In this document: positions 56,240-63,188 of the stretch, piece by piece
Layout of the letters: every line of letters starts with the position of its first letter
How positions within the stretch are numbered: position 1 is the stretch's first letter
DNA from: Erysipelotrichaceae bacterium
GTDB taxonomy: Bacteria > Bacillota_I > Bacilli_A > Erysipelotrichales > Erysipelotrichaceae
Reading direction: 5' to 3'
NCBI GenBank assembly: GCA_017454765.1
Contig: JAFTCJ010000024.1
Location: forward strand, 1 to 64,000
DNA: 64,000 nucleotides
Program-made: the position numbers and the translations under genes
The notes under the pieces: model-generated
Databases searched by the model: none
The model's input: only the letters and a program-made list of their open reading frames with translations
Told to the model about the DNA's origin: nothing

Positions 56240-57862
56240 TTATTGACACTGATCAGAATAGATTTTCTGAAGTTTCTGATTGGCTTCAAGGATCTTTTTC
56301 TGATTGACCTTGCAGATGCTGCGGTCATAGGTATAGACGCCGTTGATCTCTCCTTCGACATCACTGATCTGGGTCATGATGCAGGCGACCAGACCGTTTC
56401 TGATGGAAGGGATGACCATCTTCTCATGCATCTCGATGATCTTGTCAGTGAGTGATTCCTCTGAGTCAGTCTTGCCATATCCCCAGGTAGTTCCTTTTTC
56501 CGGGCGGTGATCATCGATCTGTCTGATGAAGCCGCCGCATTCCGAGAGAAACAGCATCTTCTCTTTTGCTTCCAGTACCTTGTTGCGGAAATAGATATGG
56601 TAGGAATCGAAGTCCGAATGATCATCGAAGAACCAGCCGGATGTGGAATCAAAGAAGCGTCCGGGATCGGCCTGTTTCAAAGTATCATAAGTTTCTGAAG
56701 CGGCCTGCTGGCCCCAGCCTTCATTGTAGATGGTGTAGCCGATGATGGAAGGATGGGATTTGAGATGATTGATCGTTTCGATCGAATGATTCAGGAAGAA
56801 ATCATAGCGTTTCTGATCCTTGATCGGACATCTGATCTTCGTGATGCCGATGGTGGGTAATATCGTATCCCTGAAGAAACGGTAAGGTCCTGAATTGACC
56901 ATATCCTGGATGACCAGGATGCCGTGTTTGTCACAATAGTAGTAGAAGGCTTCCGGTTCGACTTTGATGTGTTTGCGCAGACAGTTGAAACCGAGCTGCC
57001 TGATGTTCAGGATATCTGTTTCATAGTCTTCAGGTCTTTCCGGCAGGAAGATGCCTGTTTCAAAATAACCCTGGTCCAGCAGTCCGTTGATGAAGACGGG
57101 CTTGTCATTCAGATAGAAGCGCTGATATCCGTTGACTTTTCTTTCTTCGATCTTCCTCAAGGCAAAATAAGATGTGATCTCATCTTTGTCTGTCGATATC
57201 TTCAGTGAATAAAGATAAGGATCTTCTGTGCTCCAGAGACGGGGATCATCAATACGGATCGTGATGTCTTTGTCATGAAAAGTCTTTGAGAATCCTTCAA
57301 ATTCCACTTTGAAACTGTCACTTGCGGAATCGATATGAAGATGCAGCTCATCCGCTGTTGTTGTGATCCTGAGATCATCGATGCCTTTTGTGTCATAGGC
57401 TTCGATCCAGACGCTCTGCCAGATGCCTGATACCGGTGTGTACCACATGCCGGAAGGCTTCGCGCATTGCTTGCCGTAAGGATAAAAGAAGTCAAGATCA
57501 TCCTTCACTTCCACTTTCAGCGTATTTTCTGTTTTGATCAGGGATGTGATGTCAGCGGAAAAAGGAAGATAGCCGCCTTCGTGATGGACGATATGTTTTT
57601 CGTTGAGATAGACATCTGCGATCTGATCGACAGCGCCGAAATGCAGGATGACTTTGTCGTTTTCACTGTAAAAACCTTTCGGAAGCGAGAAGGTCTTCGT
57701 ATATACCAGTTCATTGAGCTGTCCTTCATATCCTGACAGTTCTGATTCAGGGGGGAAGGGAACTTCGATCTTTTGGTCGTTGAGTGTCCATTCTCCGCAA
57801 AGGGAAAAGAAAGACTTTCTTTGTAACAGGGGTCTTGGATAATATGTCTGATACGCGTTCAT
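56240..57862 (-). CDS. glycoside hydrolase family 2 protein
   Basis: 540 residues. Jelly-roll sugar-binding N-domain (VDQIADVYLNEKHIVHHEGG), an immunoglobulin-like domain, then a TIM barrel. LGFNCLRKHIKVEPEAFYYY, IIGYTIYNEGWGQ (acid/base Glu) and FLSECGGF (nucleophile Glu) are GH2 landmarks. It lacks the extra C-terminal domains of large beta-galactosidases, and no signal peptide is seen, so it acts inside the cell on imported glycosides. Beta-glucuronidase, galactosidase or mannosidase activity cannot be told apart. TAGAAT lies 6 nt before the ATG. Divergent from a small membrane protein. Confidence 0.88.
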   Translation of the reverse strand: MNAYQTYYPRPLLQRKSFFSLCGEWTLNDQKIEVPFPPESELSGYEGQLNELVYTKTFSLPKGFYSENDKVILHFGAVDQIADVYLNEKHIVHHEGGYLPFSADITSLIKTENTLKVEVKDDLDFFYPYGKQCAKPSGMWYTPVSGIWQSVWIEAYDTKGIDDLRITTTADELHLHIDSASDSFKVEFEGFSKTFHDKDITIRIDDPRLWSTEDPYLYSLKISTDKDEITSYFALRKIEERKVNGYQRFYLNDKPVFINGLLDQGYFETGIFLPERPEDYETDILNIRQLGFNCLRKHIKVEPEAFYYYCDKHGILVIQDMVNSGPYRFFRDTILPTIGITKIRCPIKDQKRYDFFLNHSIETINHLKSHPSIIGYTIYNEGWGQQAASETYDTLKQADPGRFFDSTSGWFFDDHSDFDSYHIYFRNKVLEAKEKMLFLSECGGFIRQIDDHRPEKGTTWGYGKTDSEESLTDKIIEMHEKMVIPSIRNGLVACIMTQISDVEGEINGVYTYDRSICKVNQKKILEANQKLQKIYSDQCQ

Positions 57863-57868
57863 ACCTTC

Positions 57869-57888
57869 ATTCTAACATAGGTTATAAT
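57869..57888. promoter_or_regulatory. back-to-back -10 boxes, GH2 gene / small membrane protein
   Basis: Minus strand TAGAAT (57874-57869), 6 nt before the GH2 ATG, with only GAAGGT between. Plus strand TATAAT (57883-57888), followed by a leader with GGGAGG for the gene at 57910. The boxes are 8 bp apart. Confidence 0.6.
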
Positions 57889-57909
57889 GATTAAAGAGGG
57901 AGGATCTTC

Positions 57910-58224
57910 ATGAAAAGAACAGTGATATCTCTTGTATCCGGTCTGGTTCTGACTCTGGCGGGAATGCTGTGGAATTATCTGAGTTACAGGGAAGACAAAT
58001 GGCTGCGGCTCGCTTACAACATGTTTGGCGGTGAGATCACGATACAGTCCGGATTCGGTCTGCGCCTGGTGCATATTTATTCCATGAGGCCGGAGAAGGG
58101 TGATTCGATCTCCCTGAGATTCGATCCGATCAGTTTTCTCGTGTGTCTGATCGTCCTGTCTTTCCTTGTATATGTCATTCTGACAGTCATCGTAAAGATC
58201 AGAAGAGGCGCTTATACAGAATAA
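57910..58224 (+). CDS. small two-helix membrane protein, unknown
   Basis: 104 residues. Membrane helices at about 5-24 and 77-96 (FLVCLIVLSFLVYVILTVIV), joined by an extracellular loop of about 50 residues with WLRLAYNMFGGEITIQSGFG, and ending KIRRGAYTE. Not recognised. AGAGGGAGG lies 6-7 nt before the ATG. It is a single gene flanked by its own promoter and terminator. Confidence 0.75.
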   Translation: MKRTVISLVSGLVLTLAGMLWNYLSYREDKWLRLAYNMFGGEITIQSGFGLRLVHIYSMRPEKGDSISLRFDPISFLVCLIVLSFLVYVILTVIVKIRRGAYTE

Positions 58225-58231
58225 GTTTCAG

Positions 58232-58261
58232 ATCAATGATGCGGAATCATTGATTTTTTTA
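58232..58261 (+). terminator. terminator after the small membrane protein
   Basis: ATCAATGAT (58232-58240), loop GCGGA, ATCATTGAT (58246-58254) followed by a run of T to 58261. Confidence 0.88.
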
Positions 58262-58313
58262 TTATTCATCAAAAGAGTCGGACAGGAAAAAGGAATATCG
58301 GCTGACTTGCCTG

Positions 58314-58319
58314 TATAAT
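58314..58319 (+). promoter_or_regulatory. -10 box of the NlpC/P60-type gene (leaderless type)
   Basis: TATAAT preceded by TG, 8 nt before ATG 58328; no Shine-Dalgarno in AGTGATAT. Confidence 0.65.
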
Positions 58320-58327
58320 AGTGATAT

Positions 58328-59674
58328 ATGCAGGAACGTTTTAAAGAGATGATCCGGAAAAACATCGTTGCCATCATTCTGGTGTTGGTTCTTTTCGGAC
58401 TGCTTTATGACAGGATGACGCAGAAGGTCTCCATGAGCGACAGTCATACGGAAGGCGGAAACATCATTATTGTTCTTGATAAGGAAGGCCAGTGTTATAT
58501 CGGCGATGACCTGGATGACGCCGAATGGGTGAAAAGCGATGAAGAAGGCGTCTGCGTTTTACCGATGATCGATAAAGGAAACATCTACATCAGAAACAAG
58601 TATGATCATCTCTGTGAGATCATCGAAGATCAGAAGTTCAGCTATGTCGACAGTTTTGAGATCACTTCGGGAAAAGCTTATCTGGCGATCGGCGGATCGG
58701 AAAAGATCTCTTATGAATCATCCTGTACGGGCCTTGTCGAATCTCCGGTCACTTTTTCCTGCAAAGATAAAGCGGTTGCTTCGGTGGATTCCGACGGAAC
58801 GATACACGGTTTAGGCAAGGGCACGACCGTATGTACAGCCGCCTATGGCGACAAGGAAGATTCTGTTGAGGTCGTGGTGACGGATCTGATCACTCCGATG
58901 GCTGCGGAATTCGATATGGAGAAGCCTTTCCTTTCCTGCGGTGTGTTCTCCAAGGAAGACAATGACCTTCTGGATGAGATCCTGTTCTCCAGGGTCGAAA
59001 AGGCGGGCTATCAGACAAGGGCCGGTGCCGTGGCAGCCGGCAGGTTTTTAGCAATGGAGTTCCCGTACCGCATCAATTACTTTACCGAAAACGGACGTCT
59101 GGGTTCCTGCAGGGAAAAGATCGTTGACGGTGAGGGCCGCTATTATCACCGCGGTCTGTATCTGGATCCTTCCCGTTTCGAAAACATCGACATGAATTAC
59201 ACGATGTCCGGACCGGCGCCCTGGGGCTGCACGATTTTTGAATATTCTTATGAAAGACATGCGGCAAACGGACTGGACTGCAGCGGATCGATGACCTGGA
59301 TCCTGGTCCAGGCGGGATTCGATCCGGGAGACATCGGTGCAGGTATCACCTCCTGGTGTCCGGCGATGTCCGATCTCGGCAAAAGATACTGGCTGGCAGA
59401 TGCGTATGATGACGGATCGTTGAGAGTCGGAGATCTGCTCAGCGGCGGTGACGGAGGACCGGAAGGAGGCGGACATATCGCCATGTGTGTCGGCATCGAC
59501 AAGGACGGATATGTCTATGTGGCCGAAGAGCTCGGTTATCATTACTACTGGGGATTCATGATACGCAAATATGACCGCAGTGAACTGCTTCGCTATTTCT
59601 ACTGGCGGGTCGACATGGATGAATTCTACGGTGTGGACGGCAATCTGACAGATTACTGGATCGATGAATCCTAA
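58328..59674 (+). CDS. membrane-anchored Ig-like/NlpC-P60-type cell-wall protein
   Basis: 448 residues. An N-terminal membrane anchor (about 10-31, NIVAIILVLVLFGLLYDRM). A BIG2-like Ig fold at about 115-190 (CKDKAVASVDSDGTIHGLGK, GTTVCTAAYGD). The C-terminal domain looks like an NlpC/P60 cysteine peptidase: NGLDCSGSMTWILVQAGFD (catalytic Cys), GDLLSGGDGGPEGGGHIAMC (His) and a third polar residue nearby. It probably cuts or remodels peptidoglycan outside the cell. The GGDGGPEGGGH insertion before the His is unusual. Followed 44 nt later by the sugar kinase gene. Confidence 0.82.
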   Translation: MQERFKEMIRKNIVAIILVLVLFGLLYDRMTQKVSMSDSHTEGGNIIIVLDKEGQCYIGDDLDDAEWVKSDEEGVCVLPMIDKGNIYIRNKYDHLCEIIEDQKFSYVDSFEITSGKAYLAIGGSEKISYESSCTGLVESPVTFSCKDKAVASVDSDGTIHGLGKGTTVCTAAYGDKEDSVEVVVTDLITPMAAEFDMEKPFLSCGVFSKEDNDLLDEILFSRVEKAGYQTRAGAVAAGRFLAMEFPYRINYFTENGRLGSCREKIVDGEGRYYHRGLYLDPSRFENIDMNYTMSGPAPWGCTIFEYSYERHAANGLDCSGSMTWILVQAGFDPGDIGAGITSWCPAMSDLGKRYWLADAYDDGSLRVGDLLSGGDGGPEGGGHIAMCVGIDKDGYVYVAEELGYHYYWGFMIRKYDRSELLRYFYWRVDMDEFYGVDGNLTDYWIDES

Positions 59675-59718
59675 ATGATAAAGATCAAGACAAGCATATT
59701 TTTTGAAGGAGACTGACA

Positions 59719-60891
59719 ATGATCTGTGAAACAAAATTCAGGGAAATATACGGCAAAGATGCGGAATTTCTTTTATTCTGCCCTTACCGCATTTCACCTT
59801 TGGGAGCCCATATCGATCATCAGGACGGCATCATCAACGGGCTGGCGATCGGCAAGGGCATCTATATTGCCTGCAGTCCCAAGAAGAACGGCATCATCGA
59901 ACTGCACAGCGTGAATTTTCCGAAAAGAGCGCAGTTCCATATCGACGATATCGAAGATCAGAAAGTGGGAGACTGGGCCGATTACCTGAGAGGTGTCACC
60001 AGGGAACTGAAGCAGAAGCATCAGCTGAAATACGGTCTTTGCGGCGTGATCGAAGGACAGCTGCCTGTCGGCGGCCTGTCATCATCCGCAGCCGTCACCA
60101 TCGTTTTCCTCAGTGCTCTGGCAAAGATCAACGGGATCCGTCTCGATCCGTGGGATCTGATCATGATGGCCAAGGCTGCCGAAAACAACTATGTCGGTGT
60201 CAAGTGCGGCAAGCTCGACCAGTGCTGCGAAGTACTGAGCAGGAAAGAGAAGCTGCTGTATCTGGACTGTAAAGATGATTCATATGAGCTGATCGATCTG
60301 AATCCGGATATGAAACCGTTCAGGATCGCGATCTTCTTTTCCGGTCTGCAGCGGTCTCTGGCCAATTCCGATTACAATCTGCGGCAGGATGAATGCAAAG
60401 CGGCTGCTTATTCACTGATGGCCTATGCCGGAATGAAATACGGCAAGTTTGCAGATGCCAAACTCAGGGATGTTCCTGCTGAAGTGTTTGAAACATACAA
60501 GGATCAGCTGCCTTTGAATTTCAGGAAAAGAGCCGTTCACTTCTTCGGTGAGATCGACAGAGCAAGAAGAGGTGCTGAAGCATTCAGAAACGGAGATCTG
60601 GAAGAATACGGAAAACTGATCTTCGAATCTGGAAAAAGCAGCATCGTCAATTATGAATGCGGCTGCAGGGAACTGATCAGTCTCTATGACATCATGACTC
60701 AGACTGAGGGCATTTACGGCGGCAGGTTTTCCGGCGCGGGCTTCAAGGGCTGCTGCATGGCTCTCATCGATCCTGAAAGAGAGGAAGAGATCTGCAAGAG
60801 AGTCTCAGAGGAATATCTGAAGATCTATCCGGAACTCAAAGACAGTTACACTTGCTGCATCTGTGACAGCAGTGACGGGGTGAAATTATGA
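59719..60891 (+). CDS. GHMP sugar 1-kinase, galacturonokinase-like
   Basis: 390 residues of the galactokinase clan. Instead of the galactokinase GEHxDY motif it has CPYRISPLGAHIDHQDG (residues 21-37; R24, H31, D33). This closely resembles plant galacturonokinase. PVGGLSSSAAV (116-126) is the ATP loop, CGKLDQCC (163-170; D167) the catalytic Asp region, and YGGRFSGAGFKGCCMAL motif 3. The predicted reaction is phosphorylation of an aldose, perhaps galacturonic acid, at C1 by ATP. The Shine-Dalgarno GAAGGAG lies before ATG 59719. It overlaps a nucleotidyltransferase gene by 4 nt, which fits a kinase-plus-pyrophosphorylase salvage route. Substrate is inferred from similarity only. Confidence 0.83.
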   Translation: MICETKFREIYGKDAEFLLFCPYRISPLGAHIDHQDGIINGLAIGKGIYIACSPKKNGIIELHSVNFPKRAQFHIDDIEDQKVGDWADYLRGVTRELKQKHQLKYGLCGVIEGQLPVGGLSSSAAVTIVFLSALAKINGIRLDPWDLIMMAKAAENNYVGVKCGKLDQCCEVLSRKEKLLYLDCKDDSYELIDLNPDMKPFRIAIFFSGLQRSLANSDYNLRQDECKAAAYSLMAYAGMKYGKFADAKLRDVPAEVFETYKDQLPLNFRKRAVHFFGEIDRARRGAEAFRNGDLEEYGKLIFESGKSSIVNYECGCRELISLYDIMTQTEGIYGGRFSGAGFKGCCMALIDPEREEEICKRVSEEYLKIYPELKDSYTCCICDSSDGVKL

Positions 60892-61607
60892 AATGCATCA
60901 TCCTGGCGGCCGGTTATGCGACCAGGCTCTATCCGCTGACGGAAAACTTTCCCAAACCGTTACTGGAAGTGGCAGGAAAAACGATACTGGATCGCCTGAT
61001 CGATGATATCGATGCGTATATCGATGAGTTTATCCTTGTCAGCAATCATAAGTTCTTTGATCAGTTCTCTGACTGGGTCAAAGAAAGAAAGATCACCGTG
61101 ATCGACGACGGTTCGATCAGAAACGAAGAAAGACTGGGTGCCGTAAGGGATCTGGAGCTTGCGGTCAATGCATCTCAGATCGAAGAAGATTGCATGGTCA
61201 TGGCCGGAGACAATCTGCTGGATTTTTCTCTGAAGAGTTTCATCGGTTTCTTTCAGGAAAAGGATTGTTCCTGTGTCATGTGCCATGAAGAAAACAGGAT
61301 CGAGGCTTTGAGAAAAACGGCAGTCATCACAACGGATGGGGATCATAAGATCCTGACATATGAAGAAAAGCCTGAACAGCCGAAGGGAAATCTGGCTGTT
61401 CCGCCGTTTTATATCTATAAAGCCAAAGATATCGTCAGAGTATCTGAAGCTTTGCAAGACGGATGTTCCTATGATGCACCGGGATCGTTTGCCGTCTGGC
61501 TTTCGGGAAGAAGCGACATGTATGCCTATCCGATGCCGGGCAGAAGATATGATATCGGCGATCTGAAGAGTTATCAGAATGTCTGTGAACTGTTTGAAGA
61601 GCACTGA
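60888..61607 (+). CDS. sugar-1-phosphate nucleotidyltransferase
   Basis: 239 residues, RmlA/GalF-like NTP_transferase. LAAGYATRLYPLTENFPKPL is the nucleotide and Lys motif, VMAGDNLLDFS the metal Asp, YEEKPEQPKGNLAVPPFYIY and RRYDIGDLKSYQNV the C-terminal part. It lacks a hexapeptide acyltransferase domain. With the overlapping kinase it would convert a free sugar to an NDP-sugar; which sugar and nucleotide are unknown. Confidence 0.88.
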   Translation: MKCIILAAGYATRLYPLTENFPKPLLEVAGKTILDRLIDDIDAYIDEFILVSNHKFFDQFSDWVKERKITVIDDGSIRNEERLGAVRDLELAVNASQIEEDCMVMAGDNLLDFSLKSFIGFFQEKDCSCVMCHEENRIEALRKTAVITTDGDHKILTYEEKPEQPKGNLAVPPFYIYKAKDIVRVSEALQDGCSYDAPGSFAVWLSGRSDMYAYPMPGRRYDIGDLKSYQNVCELFEEH

Positions 61608-61610
61608 AAA

Positions 61611-62012
61611 ATGAAGAGGAAAGTATTGTTTGTCTGCTGGGGCAATATCTGCCGCAGTGTGATGGCGGAATATATCTGCAAGCAGATGAGACCTGAGATC
61701 GATTGTGAATCGAGAGCTGTCTCGAATGATGCGACAGGCTGCGACATCTATCCGGCTGCCAAACGCTGTCTGGACAGGCACGGAATCGCTTATCAGAAAC
61801 ATCGTGCCAGAAGGGTCAGCCAGGCTGATTATGAGGCATTTGATGAGATCTACGTGATGGACGAGCTCAACATGCGCTATATCAAAAGGATCATCGATGA
61901 TCATGATCGCAAGATACTGATGCTGTGTGATGATGAGATCGAAGATCCCTGGTATACAGACCGTTTTGATCTGGTTTATGATCAGATCCTGGAAGGGATC
62001 AGATCGTTATAG
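61611..62012 (+). CDS. low-molecular-weight protein tyrosine phosphatase
   Basis: 133 residues, slightly shorter than the usual 145-155. The P-loop is VCWGNICRSVMAEYIC (C-x5-R, with the canonical Cys and Arg) and the general-acid Asp is in IEDPWYT. Phosphatases of this type often control polysaccharide export kinases; the partner kinase is not in the window. It lies 3 nt after the nucleotidyltransferase, so it is in the same transcript. Confidence 0.92.
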   Translation: MKRKVLFVCWGNICRSVMAEYICKQMRPEIDCESRAVSNDATGCDIYPAAKRCLDRHGIAYQKHRARRVSQADYEAFDEIYVMDELNMRYIKRIIDDHDRKILMLCDDEIEDPWYTDRFDLVYDQILEGIRSL

Positions 62013-62014
62013 AA

Positions 62015-62038
62015 AAAAGGTTTCGTCTGAAACCTTTT
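62015..62038. terminator. bidirectional terminator, phosphatase / zinc-ribbon gene
   Basis: AAAAGGTTTC (62015-62024), loop GTCT, GAAACCTTTT (62029-62038): a 10-bp stem usable on both strands. Confidence 0.88.
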
Positions 62039-62396
62039 ATAATACGTTGTTGTCGATGTTCTCAGAGATCTCTTCTTCGGGGATATCGTAACTCTGGTCG
62101 TCCATCGCTTCTTTCTTCTCGTTTCTGTCGATGAAGTATTCGGCAGCGGCGATTGCTGTTCCAAGTGCGATCAGAATGAGACCGGCGCCGAATTCCACGA
62201 CCGGTTTTGTTTTCTTCCAGAGTCTCTGGGCATTATTATTTATCGTTCTTTTCATATCTTCTTTTTCCTTTATTTGGACTTCATTGCCGCAATACAGGCA
62301 GATCCATCTATCTTTTTCCTCACTGAAACCTTCCTGTTTGCTCAATTCAGCACCGCAGAAAGGGCATAAATACTGTTTTTTCACCTGATTTTCCAT
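62037..62396 (-). CDS. zinc-ribbon, single-helix membrane protein, unknown
   Basis: 119 residues from ATG 62394-62396 (MENQVKKQYLCPFCGAELSK). CPFCG and CLYCG form a zinc ribbon (four Cys, about residues 11-38). A basic segment, a membrane helix (VVEFGAGLILIALGTAIAAA, about 69-88) and an acidic tail follow. AGAGGTG lies 6-7 nt before the ATG; a GTG at 62403-62405 is an alternative start. No specific family recognised. Confidence 0.78.
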   Translation of the reverse strand: MENQVKKQYLCPFCGAELSKQEGFSEEKDRWICLYCGNEVQIKEKEDMKRTINNNAQRLWKKTKPVVEFGAGLILIALGTAIAAAEYFIDRNEKKEAMDDQSYDIPEEEISENIDNNVL

Positions 62397-62416
62397 ATCA
62401 AACACCTCTTGGAATC

Positions 62417-62422
62417 ATTATA
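62417..62422 (-). promoter_or_regulatory. -10 box of the zinc-ribbon protein gene
   Basis: TATAAT on the minus strand, with a leader of about 14 nt and a ribosome-binding site. No -35 at standard spacing. Confidence 0.55.
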
Positions 62423-62445
62423 ACAGACTTTTTATTCAAAAATAG

Positions 62446-62474
62446 TTGACGGTCATATGAACCTATGATATAAT
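62446..62474 (+). promoter_or_regulatory. near-consensus promoter of the 62503-64000 operon
   Basis: TTGACG (62446-62451), 17-bp spacer, TATAAT (62469-62474). It is one of the best-matching sigma-70-type promoters in the window, with AAGGAGG (62487-62493) before the first ATG. Confidence 0.9.
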
Positions 62475-62502
62475 CAAATTACCATAAAGGAGGTAGAAAA
62501 CA

Positions 62503-62661
62503 ATGATGATGTTATTAATGATTTTGTTTATATACGCATTATTTATCATTTTTGCATTAATTATCGGTCTTTTCAGGATCTGTTTCTATCTCAGCCCATT
62601 AGGTTTACTGATGATGTTCCTGTTCAGACCAAGAAGAAGAATCAGAAGATTTTATTACTAA
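62503..62661 (+). CDS. 52-residue membrane peptide with an Arg-rich tail
   Basis: ATG at 62503-62505, TAA at 62659-62661. MMMLLMILFIYALFIIFALI is followed by IGLFRICFYLSPLGLLMMFL and FRPRRRIRRFYY: one or two hydrophobic segments and a basic C-terminus (cytoplasmic by the positive-inside rule). AAGGAGG is 9 nt upstream and a near-consensus promoter precedes it, so it is very likely translated. It resembles no family I know. The LURP-one-like gene begins 30 nt downstream with its own AGGAGGAG. Confidence 0.8.
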   Translation: MMMLLMILFIYALFIIFALIIGLFRICFYLSPLGLLMMFLFRPRRRIRRFYY

Positions 62662-62690
62662 AGAAATAATTATGTAGGAGGAGACAAACA

Positions 62691-63188
62691 ATGAAATACT
62701 ATCTGAAAGAAAACTTCCGTCTCCTCCATGCGGATGGTCAGTTATATAACGAAGCTGGAGAGGAAGTTTATACCTATAAGAACAAGAACGTGTTCTTCCC
62801 GAGGATCGATCTGTGCAAATACGGCATCAATATCGGTCATATCAAAGAACAGTTCAGATGGTTCCTGGATCATTTCGATATCGTTTACGGTGCTGAAACA
62901 GTAGGCACACTCGAAGAAAAGCTGCGTTTCCTGGGAAGCGAGATGTGGATCCATGAGCTCGGCTGGAGGATCGAGGGAGATATCTTCTCCATGAACTACG
63001 ATGTCTATAATGAAAACGATGAAGTGATCGCTGTCGTCGATCAGGAAATATTCAGGATGACACAGCGTTTCTACATCGATATCTATGATGAAGACAATGA
63101 AGAACTGATCGTCCTGCTGGTCCTGGCAGTCAATCAGTTCGACAAGAACAAGAAAGCAGCAGCAGCTGCTGCAGCAAGCGCACATTAA
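62691..63188 (+). CDS. LURP-one-related (tubby/scramblase-like) protein
   Basis: 165 residues. A beta-barrel LOR pattern: LLHADGQLYNEAGEEVYTYK, LGWRIEGDIFSMNYDVYNEN and VIAVVDQEIFRMTQRFYIDI followed by LVLLVLAVNQ. Bacterial LURP-one proteins have no firm function; the fold is related to phospholipid scramblases and tubby domains. It ends in an alanine run (KKAAAAAAASAH) coded by mixed GCA/GCT codons. AGGAGGAG lies before the ATG. Second gene of the operon. Confidence 0.85.
   Translation: MKYYLKENFRLLHADGQLYNEAGEEVYTYKNKNVFFPRIDLCKYGINIGHIKEQFRWFLDHFDIVYGAETVGTLEEKLRFLGSEMWIHELGWRIEGDIFSMNYDVYNENDEVIAVVDQEIFRMTQRFYIDIYDEDNEELIVLLVLAVNQFDKNKKAAAAAAASAH

Follow-up and report, generated by a model that had tools for sequence, protein, structure and literature searches.

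A galacturonokinase-type kinase and its partner nucleotidyltransferase: a probable galacturonate-activation module in an Erysipelotrichaceae genome and its relatives

The plant galacturonokinase GalAK (Arabidopsis At3g10700) was reportedly described by Yang et al. in 2009, as we know from papers that cite it. Excerpts of PMC6329318 and PMC5609113 indicate that the accompanying nucleotidyl transfer is carried out in plants by a broad UDP-sugar pyrophosphorylase. The Arabidopsis version of this enzyme uses galacturonate-1-phosphate with a Km of 1.3 mM (excerpt of PMC5609113); hence, the second step is known in plants. A different arrangement is seen in the zebrafish protein DrGKUP, in which, according to another excerpt of PMC3938481, a glucuronate 1-kinase from a different branch of the GHMP kinases is fused to a short bacterial-type pyrophosphorylase in one protein; the pyrophosphorylase tree of that source includes proteins of Butyrivibrio, Prevotella and Dorea. 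No bacterial galacturonokinase is named in the titles among the literature matches listed. The gene pair analyzed here, from an Erysipelotrichaceae genome, shares features with each of these systems. With GalAK (as represented by a presumed plant sequence) its kinase has in common the motif GAHIDHQ, the C-terminal FSGAGF and GCC elements and, less surely, the side of the galactokinase split on which it falls; with DrGKUP, the coupling of a putative uronate 1-kinase to a short pyrophosphorylase-like protein; and with the galactokinase GalK, the fold and three GHMP domains. It differs from GalAK in being bacterial and in having a dedicated short nucleotidyltransferase (NTase) as its partner, and from GalK in displaying GAHxDH rather than GEHxDY, in forming a separate clade and in having an NTase rather than gal genes alongside.

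Within the window (the whole 64,000-nucleotide stretch that was analyzed), the kinase gene occupies positions 59719–60891 of the forward strand and specifies 390 residues; its assignment as a galacturonokinase-type GHMP kinase draws on the ORF, Pfam profiles, the tree and the predicted fold. The NTase gene (60888–61607, forward strand, 239 residues) begins with an ATG that, in our ORF reading, overlaps the kinase stop as ATGA, and was delineated through its ORF, its PF00483 match, its position beside the kinase in related loci and an alignment of 10 NTases. Matches over the curated Pfam cut-offs are PF10509, PF00288 and PF08544 in the kinase, PF00483 (84.3 bits) in the NTase and PF01451 (81 bits) in the low-molecular-weight phosphatase (LMW-PTP) that follows at 61611–62012 on the same strand. 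As only 3 bases separate its start from the NTase stop, the LMW-PTP is probably co-transcribed with the pair in this genome. All three ORFs, on the forward strand, lie where the initial annotation had placed them. Scans of 57800–62800 returned 6 promoters against 7.3 expected and 7 terminators against 3.8 expected, none of the latter being scored just after 62012. By eye, an A/T-rich inverted repeat that the scan did not score lies directly behind the LMW-PTP stop (62013–62040) and could terminate the transcript. On the other side, 44 bases 5' of the kinase, an ORF at 58328–59674 codes for a Big_2 domain protein whose CHAP match stays below threshold, and belongs to the same inserted stretch (see below).

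The kinase translation shows the motif PYRISPLGAHIDHQ and, in its C-terminal part, GGRFSGAGFKGCC. Alignment columns place the sugar-site motif GAHIDHQ, which replaces GEHxDY, at residues 29–35 (59803–59823, forward strand), and the claim that the protein carries the motif of plant galacturonokinase instead of the galactokinase one can thus be read directly from the translation. We aligned 87 family members with 20 galactokinases, the former comprising the window kinase, L002, L003, L102, L104, L112, L113 and 80 loci from a genome scan with the patterns LG[AS]HIDHQ or GFKGCCM, these being the best 80 of at least 555 relatives (at least 592 stretches). The Glu of the galactokinase motif, present in 20/20 galactokinases and which we take to hold galactose O6, is replaced by Ala in 85 of the 87 family members and by Ser in the other 2, while the motif Tyr (again 20/20) is His in all 87, counts that are biased because 80 of the 87 were fetched by motif-containing patterns. 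Three relatives obtained through plain protein searches, L003 (67% identity), L112 (46%) and L113 (40%), retain GAHIDHQ or GAHVDHQ. As judged from the alignment, we regard it as confirmed that the substitution is more than chance; Ala in place of this Glu is, we presume, a feature of galacturonokinase (GalAK). Apart from these Glu-to-Ala and Tyr-to-His changes, the catalytic and sugar-site residues are retained; Arg24, His31, Asp33 and Asp167 are common to the family (n=87) and the galactokinases (n=20). At residue 219, where 20/20 galactokinases have a sugar-site Tyr, 45 of the 87 members have Tyr and 42 have Phe, the latter including all 26 rows labelled Bacteroidota. This split may mark two substrates; hence, the sugars used may differ within the kinase family.

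Profile and structure comparisons place the kinase close to the galactokinases. It scores below all five NCBIfam galactokinase cut-offs, the nearest being TIGR00131 (221.2 versus 226.65), and the three relatives scored (L003, L002 and L072) likewise fall under all five. The predicted structure, built from 26 family sequences (pLDDT 92.7), has the galactokinase fold and superimposes on human GALK1 with a TM of 0.86 at approximately 27% identity and on the Lactococcus lactis structure 1pie with a TM of 0.89; identity to Escherichia coli GalK is 28.5%. A further candidate from the superfamily, the D-glycero-D-manno-heptose 7-phosphate kinase HddA, was rejected, as its model NF049969 gives only 19.9 bits against a cut-off of 600.

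For the phylogenetic placement we used a tree of 49 rows, consisting of 27 of the 86 fetched family rows, the window kinase, 20 galactokinases and one plant row, and a second tree of 42 rows from which two long rows were left out. The plant row is a presumed sequence of the Arabidopsis galacturonokinase, with 424 residues, which we take to be the length of the plant enzyme. The initial annotation had proposed kinship with plant galacturonokinases as opposed to bacterial galactokinases, and one half of this stands: the galactokinases form a separate clade (100/100 in the 49-row tree), and the second tree has the same split. The place of the presumed plant row is less sure. It falls on the family side in the first tree, where a topology that forces it into the galactokinases still passes the AU test (p-AU 0.266); in the second it stands next to the family as a whole, but with weak support (76/15). 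An AU test on the second tree constrained this row to group with 10 arbitrarily chosen galactokinases out of the 20, and its tiny p value is uninformative. Pairwise comparisons lean the same way as the trees: identity between the presumed plant sequence and the window kinase is 38.8%, and the plant sequence gives 146–271 bits against the 86 fetched family rows versus 98–132 bits against the 20 galactokinases. At the columns diagnostic for the family it agrees in 37 of 79, and at those diagnostic for galactokinases in 5 of 32 (33 of 73 and 5 of 29, respectively, after removal of the columns covered by the fetch patterns). Together, these sequence comparisons support the view that the kinase is of the galacturonokinase type, apart from the true galactokinases.

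The NTase is the usual companion of this kinase. Using tblastn with a threshold of at least 100 bits, we recovered it in 76 of 80 loci (the best 80 of at least 555 relatives), which upholds the suggestion that the overlapping NTase gene is a conserved partner. In 74 of the 76 its start lies no more than 150 bases from the kinase end (it is farther away in L077 and L087), and the match is partial in L023 and L087. Three of the four loci devoid of it (L024, L044 and L061) stop at most 300 bases from the kinase; in the fourth and only one with room for it (L093:10001-12456), a UDP-glucose dehydrogenase gene sits directly 3' of the kinase. None of 17 galactokinase loci from the same order has the NTase, as far as their flanks of up to about 1.5 kb reach. 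Hence, the kinase-NTase module is real and conserved. In the alignment of 10 NTases, the N-terminal, GDN and EKP segments are conserved, with exceptions in L104 and L089. Among the top-scoring NCBIfam models for the NTase of the window are those of the AglF-type UTP--glucose-1-phosphate uridylyltransferases (95.4 bits) and the RmlA-type NTases (74.7 bits). These scores are far below the respective cut-offs of 400 and 320, no NCBIfam equivalog cut-off is reached, and, unlike those enzymes, the NTase has a uronate-type kinase as its partner gene. A single-sequence structure prediction for the NTase was unusable (pLDDT 38).

Beyond the pair itself, the recurrent neighbors are genes of uronate metabolism. 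Of the same best 80 of at least 555 relatives, at least 36 have a UDP-glucuronate-4-epimerase-type gene no farther than about 2.1 kb away, and at least 17 have a UDP-glucose dehydrogenase no farther than about 2.3 kb away, both counts being lower bounds because contigs end nearby. In the SDR epimerase of L003, the only one checked in this respect, an Arg aligns with Arg185 of the Bacillus cereus UDP-glucuronate 4-epimerase, a residue that binds the carboxylate according to an excerpt of PMC12338863. The gene order in L003, epimerase-kinase-NTase-dehydrogenase, recurs beside capsule genes on a Lactococcus garvieae plasmid, in which the kinase is annotated as two ORFs. Related settings are seen in L113, with a dehydrogenase, an epimerase-family protein and a sugar transferase, and in L112, with CpsB/CapC, Wzz-type and sugar-transfer ATP-grasp genes. 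In the Bacillota-rich loci L022–L049, no Pfam family occurs in more than 2 of the 61 other neighbors scanned, and housekeeping genes are among them, a variety which argues against a fixed polysaccharide context. In 13 loci (L050:777-2132 and 12 similar ones, as grouped by clusters with Pfam assignment of one member) a phosphoglucose-isomerase-family gene lies upstream of the pair.

The initial annotation had also drawn in the LMW-PTP as a member of the system and a nearby GH2 enzyme (56240–57862, reverse strand; defined by solved relatives and same-genus synteny) as a source of its sugar, and neither role is upheld by synteny. Among 36 genomes of the genus (own included), 30 have the DUF1836 marker, and we fetched 8 regions, one of them only 3.5 kb long. 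GH2, LMW-PTP and DUF1836 are found in conserved order in all 8, and neither the kinase, the NTase nor the CHAP ORF was found in any of them; L134 and L136, whose identities match, may be near copies of one another, and it is safer to count seven independent cases. Both the LMW-PTP and the GH2 gene are hence older flanks. Further, the LMW-PTP signature occurs in none of the 80 related loci (1.25 Mb; best 80 of at least 555 relatives). The GH2 enzyme has as its nearest solved relatives 7sf2 (an unnamed GH2) and the beta-D-galactofuranosidase 9j6n, and is thus closer to beta-galactofuranosidase than to glucuronidase; an assignment as glucuronidase was rejected at 105.8 bits against a cut-off of 544 for the NCBIfam beta-glucuronidase model. 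The nearest same-genus genome, L135, aligns up to 58154 and resumes at 61608, leaving the forward-strand stretch 58155–61607 (CHAP/Big_2 ORF, kinase and NTase) as an insertion slot with no counterpart there. In L135 different ORFs fill this slot between GH2 and LMW-PTP (L135:4129-6001), and it therefore looks like a site of gene exchange. The spread of the kinase is patchy in both order and phylum. An order-wide search of 196 genomes at 1e-40 gave 19 matches: its own, one at 67% (G107) and 17 at 29–34%, which we take as ordinary galactokinases. Ten other genomes of the genus had no match at this threshold, and a phylum-wide search of 392 genomes at 1e-70 gave 3 matches, own included. From this patchiness and the insertion slot we infer that the pair travels between genomes as an accessory cassette.

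The host assembly (1.71 Mb) is only 72% complete, so absences from it are weak evidence. Contig C14 codes for a UDP-glucose dehydrogenase (74% identical to that of L025) and, adjoining it, a UDP-glucuronate-4-epimerase-type protein (65% identical to that of L003). The idea that the pair by-passes UDP-glucose dehydrogenase therefore finds no support in the host's own gene content. Interpretation of these two C14 genes as a capsule locus was dropped, no matched ORF among the 10 upstream ORFs scanned being a capsule gene. On contig C19, glucuronate isomerase, tagaturonate reductase and KDPG aldolase score over their cut-offs, and a dehydratase and a sugar-acid kinase match below theirs. Because of these hexuronate-breakdown genes, free uronate is a plausible metabolite of the host. 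UxaC, for which the best-scoring model is named glucuronate isomerase, is present in 3/3 other kinase genomes, a weak link since it also turns up in 7/14 controls. In the 72% complete assembly we found no second kinase copy (E 0.001), no galT (TIGR00209) and no GH28 polygalacturonase; a GH28 enzyme of the host itself was accordingly set aside as the galacturonate source.

The pair is also seen in three viral contigs of IMG/VR. The kinase is 50% identical to that of the window in two of them, with the NTase 0.4 kb (L002/L103) and 1.75 kb (L102) further on; in the third (L104) it is 34% identical and the NTase lies 0.8 kb on, on the opposite strand. The 179.7-kb contig of L103 has a tail-sheath gene elsewhere (PHROGs), and genes for a DnaB-type helicase and an NAD-dependent ligase lie on that of L104. 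No terminase was matched in the viral records (PF17289 searched in three, PF03237 in two), which leaves their IMG/VR class as the main ground for regarding L104 and L102 as viral. Neither epimerase nor dehydrogenase was found in the viral stretches examined. By eye, the pair on the contig of L103 and L115 follows two glycosyltransferase-like ORFs (L002:1025-4805), and on the short contig L102 (L102:591-7460) the kinase is preceded by an ORF with a reverse-transcriptase-like YMDD segment and separated from the NTase by a transposase-like one. The L002 kinase has no match in PHROGs, and the window kinase none at E ≤ 0.001 in a library of predicted viral structures. In INPHARED, 9 phage records are 25–30% identical to the window kinase and 7 are 28–30% identical to the L002 kinase; the L002 NTase has no match there.

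Taking these sequence features together, we think it probable that the kinase and the NTase constitute a module that salvages a free hexuronic acid in two steps, the likeliest substrate being D-galacturonic acid. The kinase would phosphorylate galacturonate at C1 with ATP, the Ala30 that stands in for the galactokinase Glu making room for the C6 carboxylate and Arg24, His31, Asp33 and Asp167 being retained. The NTase would then couple galacturonate-1-phosphate to a nucleotide, most likely UTP, yielding UDP-galacturonate. Going by gene content, this product would join the UDP-glucuronate/UDP-galacturonate pool that supplies capsule or other surface glycans, the same pool that is filled de novo by UDP-glucose dehydrogenase and UDP-glucuronate 4-epimerase. 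As carriers already have this de novo route, the need for salvage is not obvious. That redundancy, apparent in capsule-type loci with the complete de novo route, together with the Tyr/Phe split at residue 219, would suit a kinase for another sugar—a rarer uronic acid or a free capsule-pathway intermediate—whose NTase makes an unusual NDP-sugar. However, the pair also occurs by itself among varied genes and on viral contigs in whose examined stretches neither epimerase nor dehydrogenase was found, and His31, Asp33 and Asp167 of the galactokinases are retained; we accord this reading a rather low probability.

The same module could instead serve D-glucuronic acid, converting it via glucuronate-1-phosphate to UDP-glucuronate, from which the linked epimerase would form UDP-galacturonate. 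The linked epimerase and dehydrogenase suit either acid, the best model for the host UxaC bears the name of glucuronate isomerase, and the UxaC family acts on both glucuronate and galacturonate, which we count on this side. Yet in the 49-row tree the family sits, if not securely, with the presumed plant galacturonate enzyme, and the plant- and fish-type glucuronokinases differ greatly in sequence, according to an excerpt of PMC3938481, from the kinase for galacturonate, making glucuronate an unlikely substrate. Still less can be said for a divergent galactokinase or broad sugar-1-kinase with a uridylyltransferase of its own in lieu of the GalT step of the Leloir pathway. The fold, the best NCBIfam models (with TIGR00131 missed by a few bits) and the lack of a galT match in the 72% complete assembly would accord with it, but both the Glu and the Tyr of GEHxDY are replaced in 87/87 family members, galactokinases form a separate clade in both trees, and the recurrent neighbors are uronate rather than galactose genes; we judge it very unlikely. 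As for the initially envisaged operon of kinase, NTase and phosphatase, fed by the GH2 enzyme and by-passing UDP-glucose dehydrogenase, the 3-base spacing and likely co-transcription in the host speak for it. Against it stand the same-genus synteny, which marks phosphatase and GH2 as older flanks, the different type of the GH2 enzyme and the dehydrogenase and epimerase already present in the host genome, and we give it almost no credence.

Returning to galacturonate salvage, a wider scenario can be offered tentatively. The pair may be a mobile cassette for galacturonate activation that is widespread among the Clostridia and Bacteroidales of gut and rumen and for whose kinase the nearest database models are those of galactokinase. 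Phages carrying it might make UDP-galacturonate from the free sugar of their hosts to glycosylate their virions or the cell surface, and the plant galacturonokinase might have descended from such a bacterial gene.

Judging from its sequence and contexts, the cassette, which many bacteria of gut and rumen share with a few viral contigs, probably converts free galacturonate, a sugar acid of pectin, to an activated precursor of surface sugars. If so, many of these bacteria could, besides burning free galacturonate, build it directly into surface sugars of their own. A family scoring just under a galactokinase cut-off would then be something else, and its kinase is easily mistaken for an ordinary galactokinase. 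In an excerpt of a rumen study (PMC6784887), galactokinase is among the enzymes whose expression indicated the sugar used; near-galactokinase proteins of this kind could mislead such galactokinase-based inference of sugar use. Lastly, a plant-type kinase with its own dedicated NTase would offer a handy route to UDP-galacturonate.
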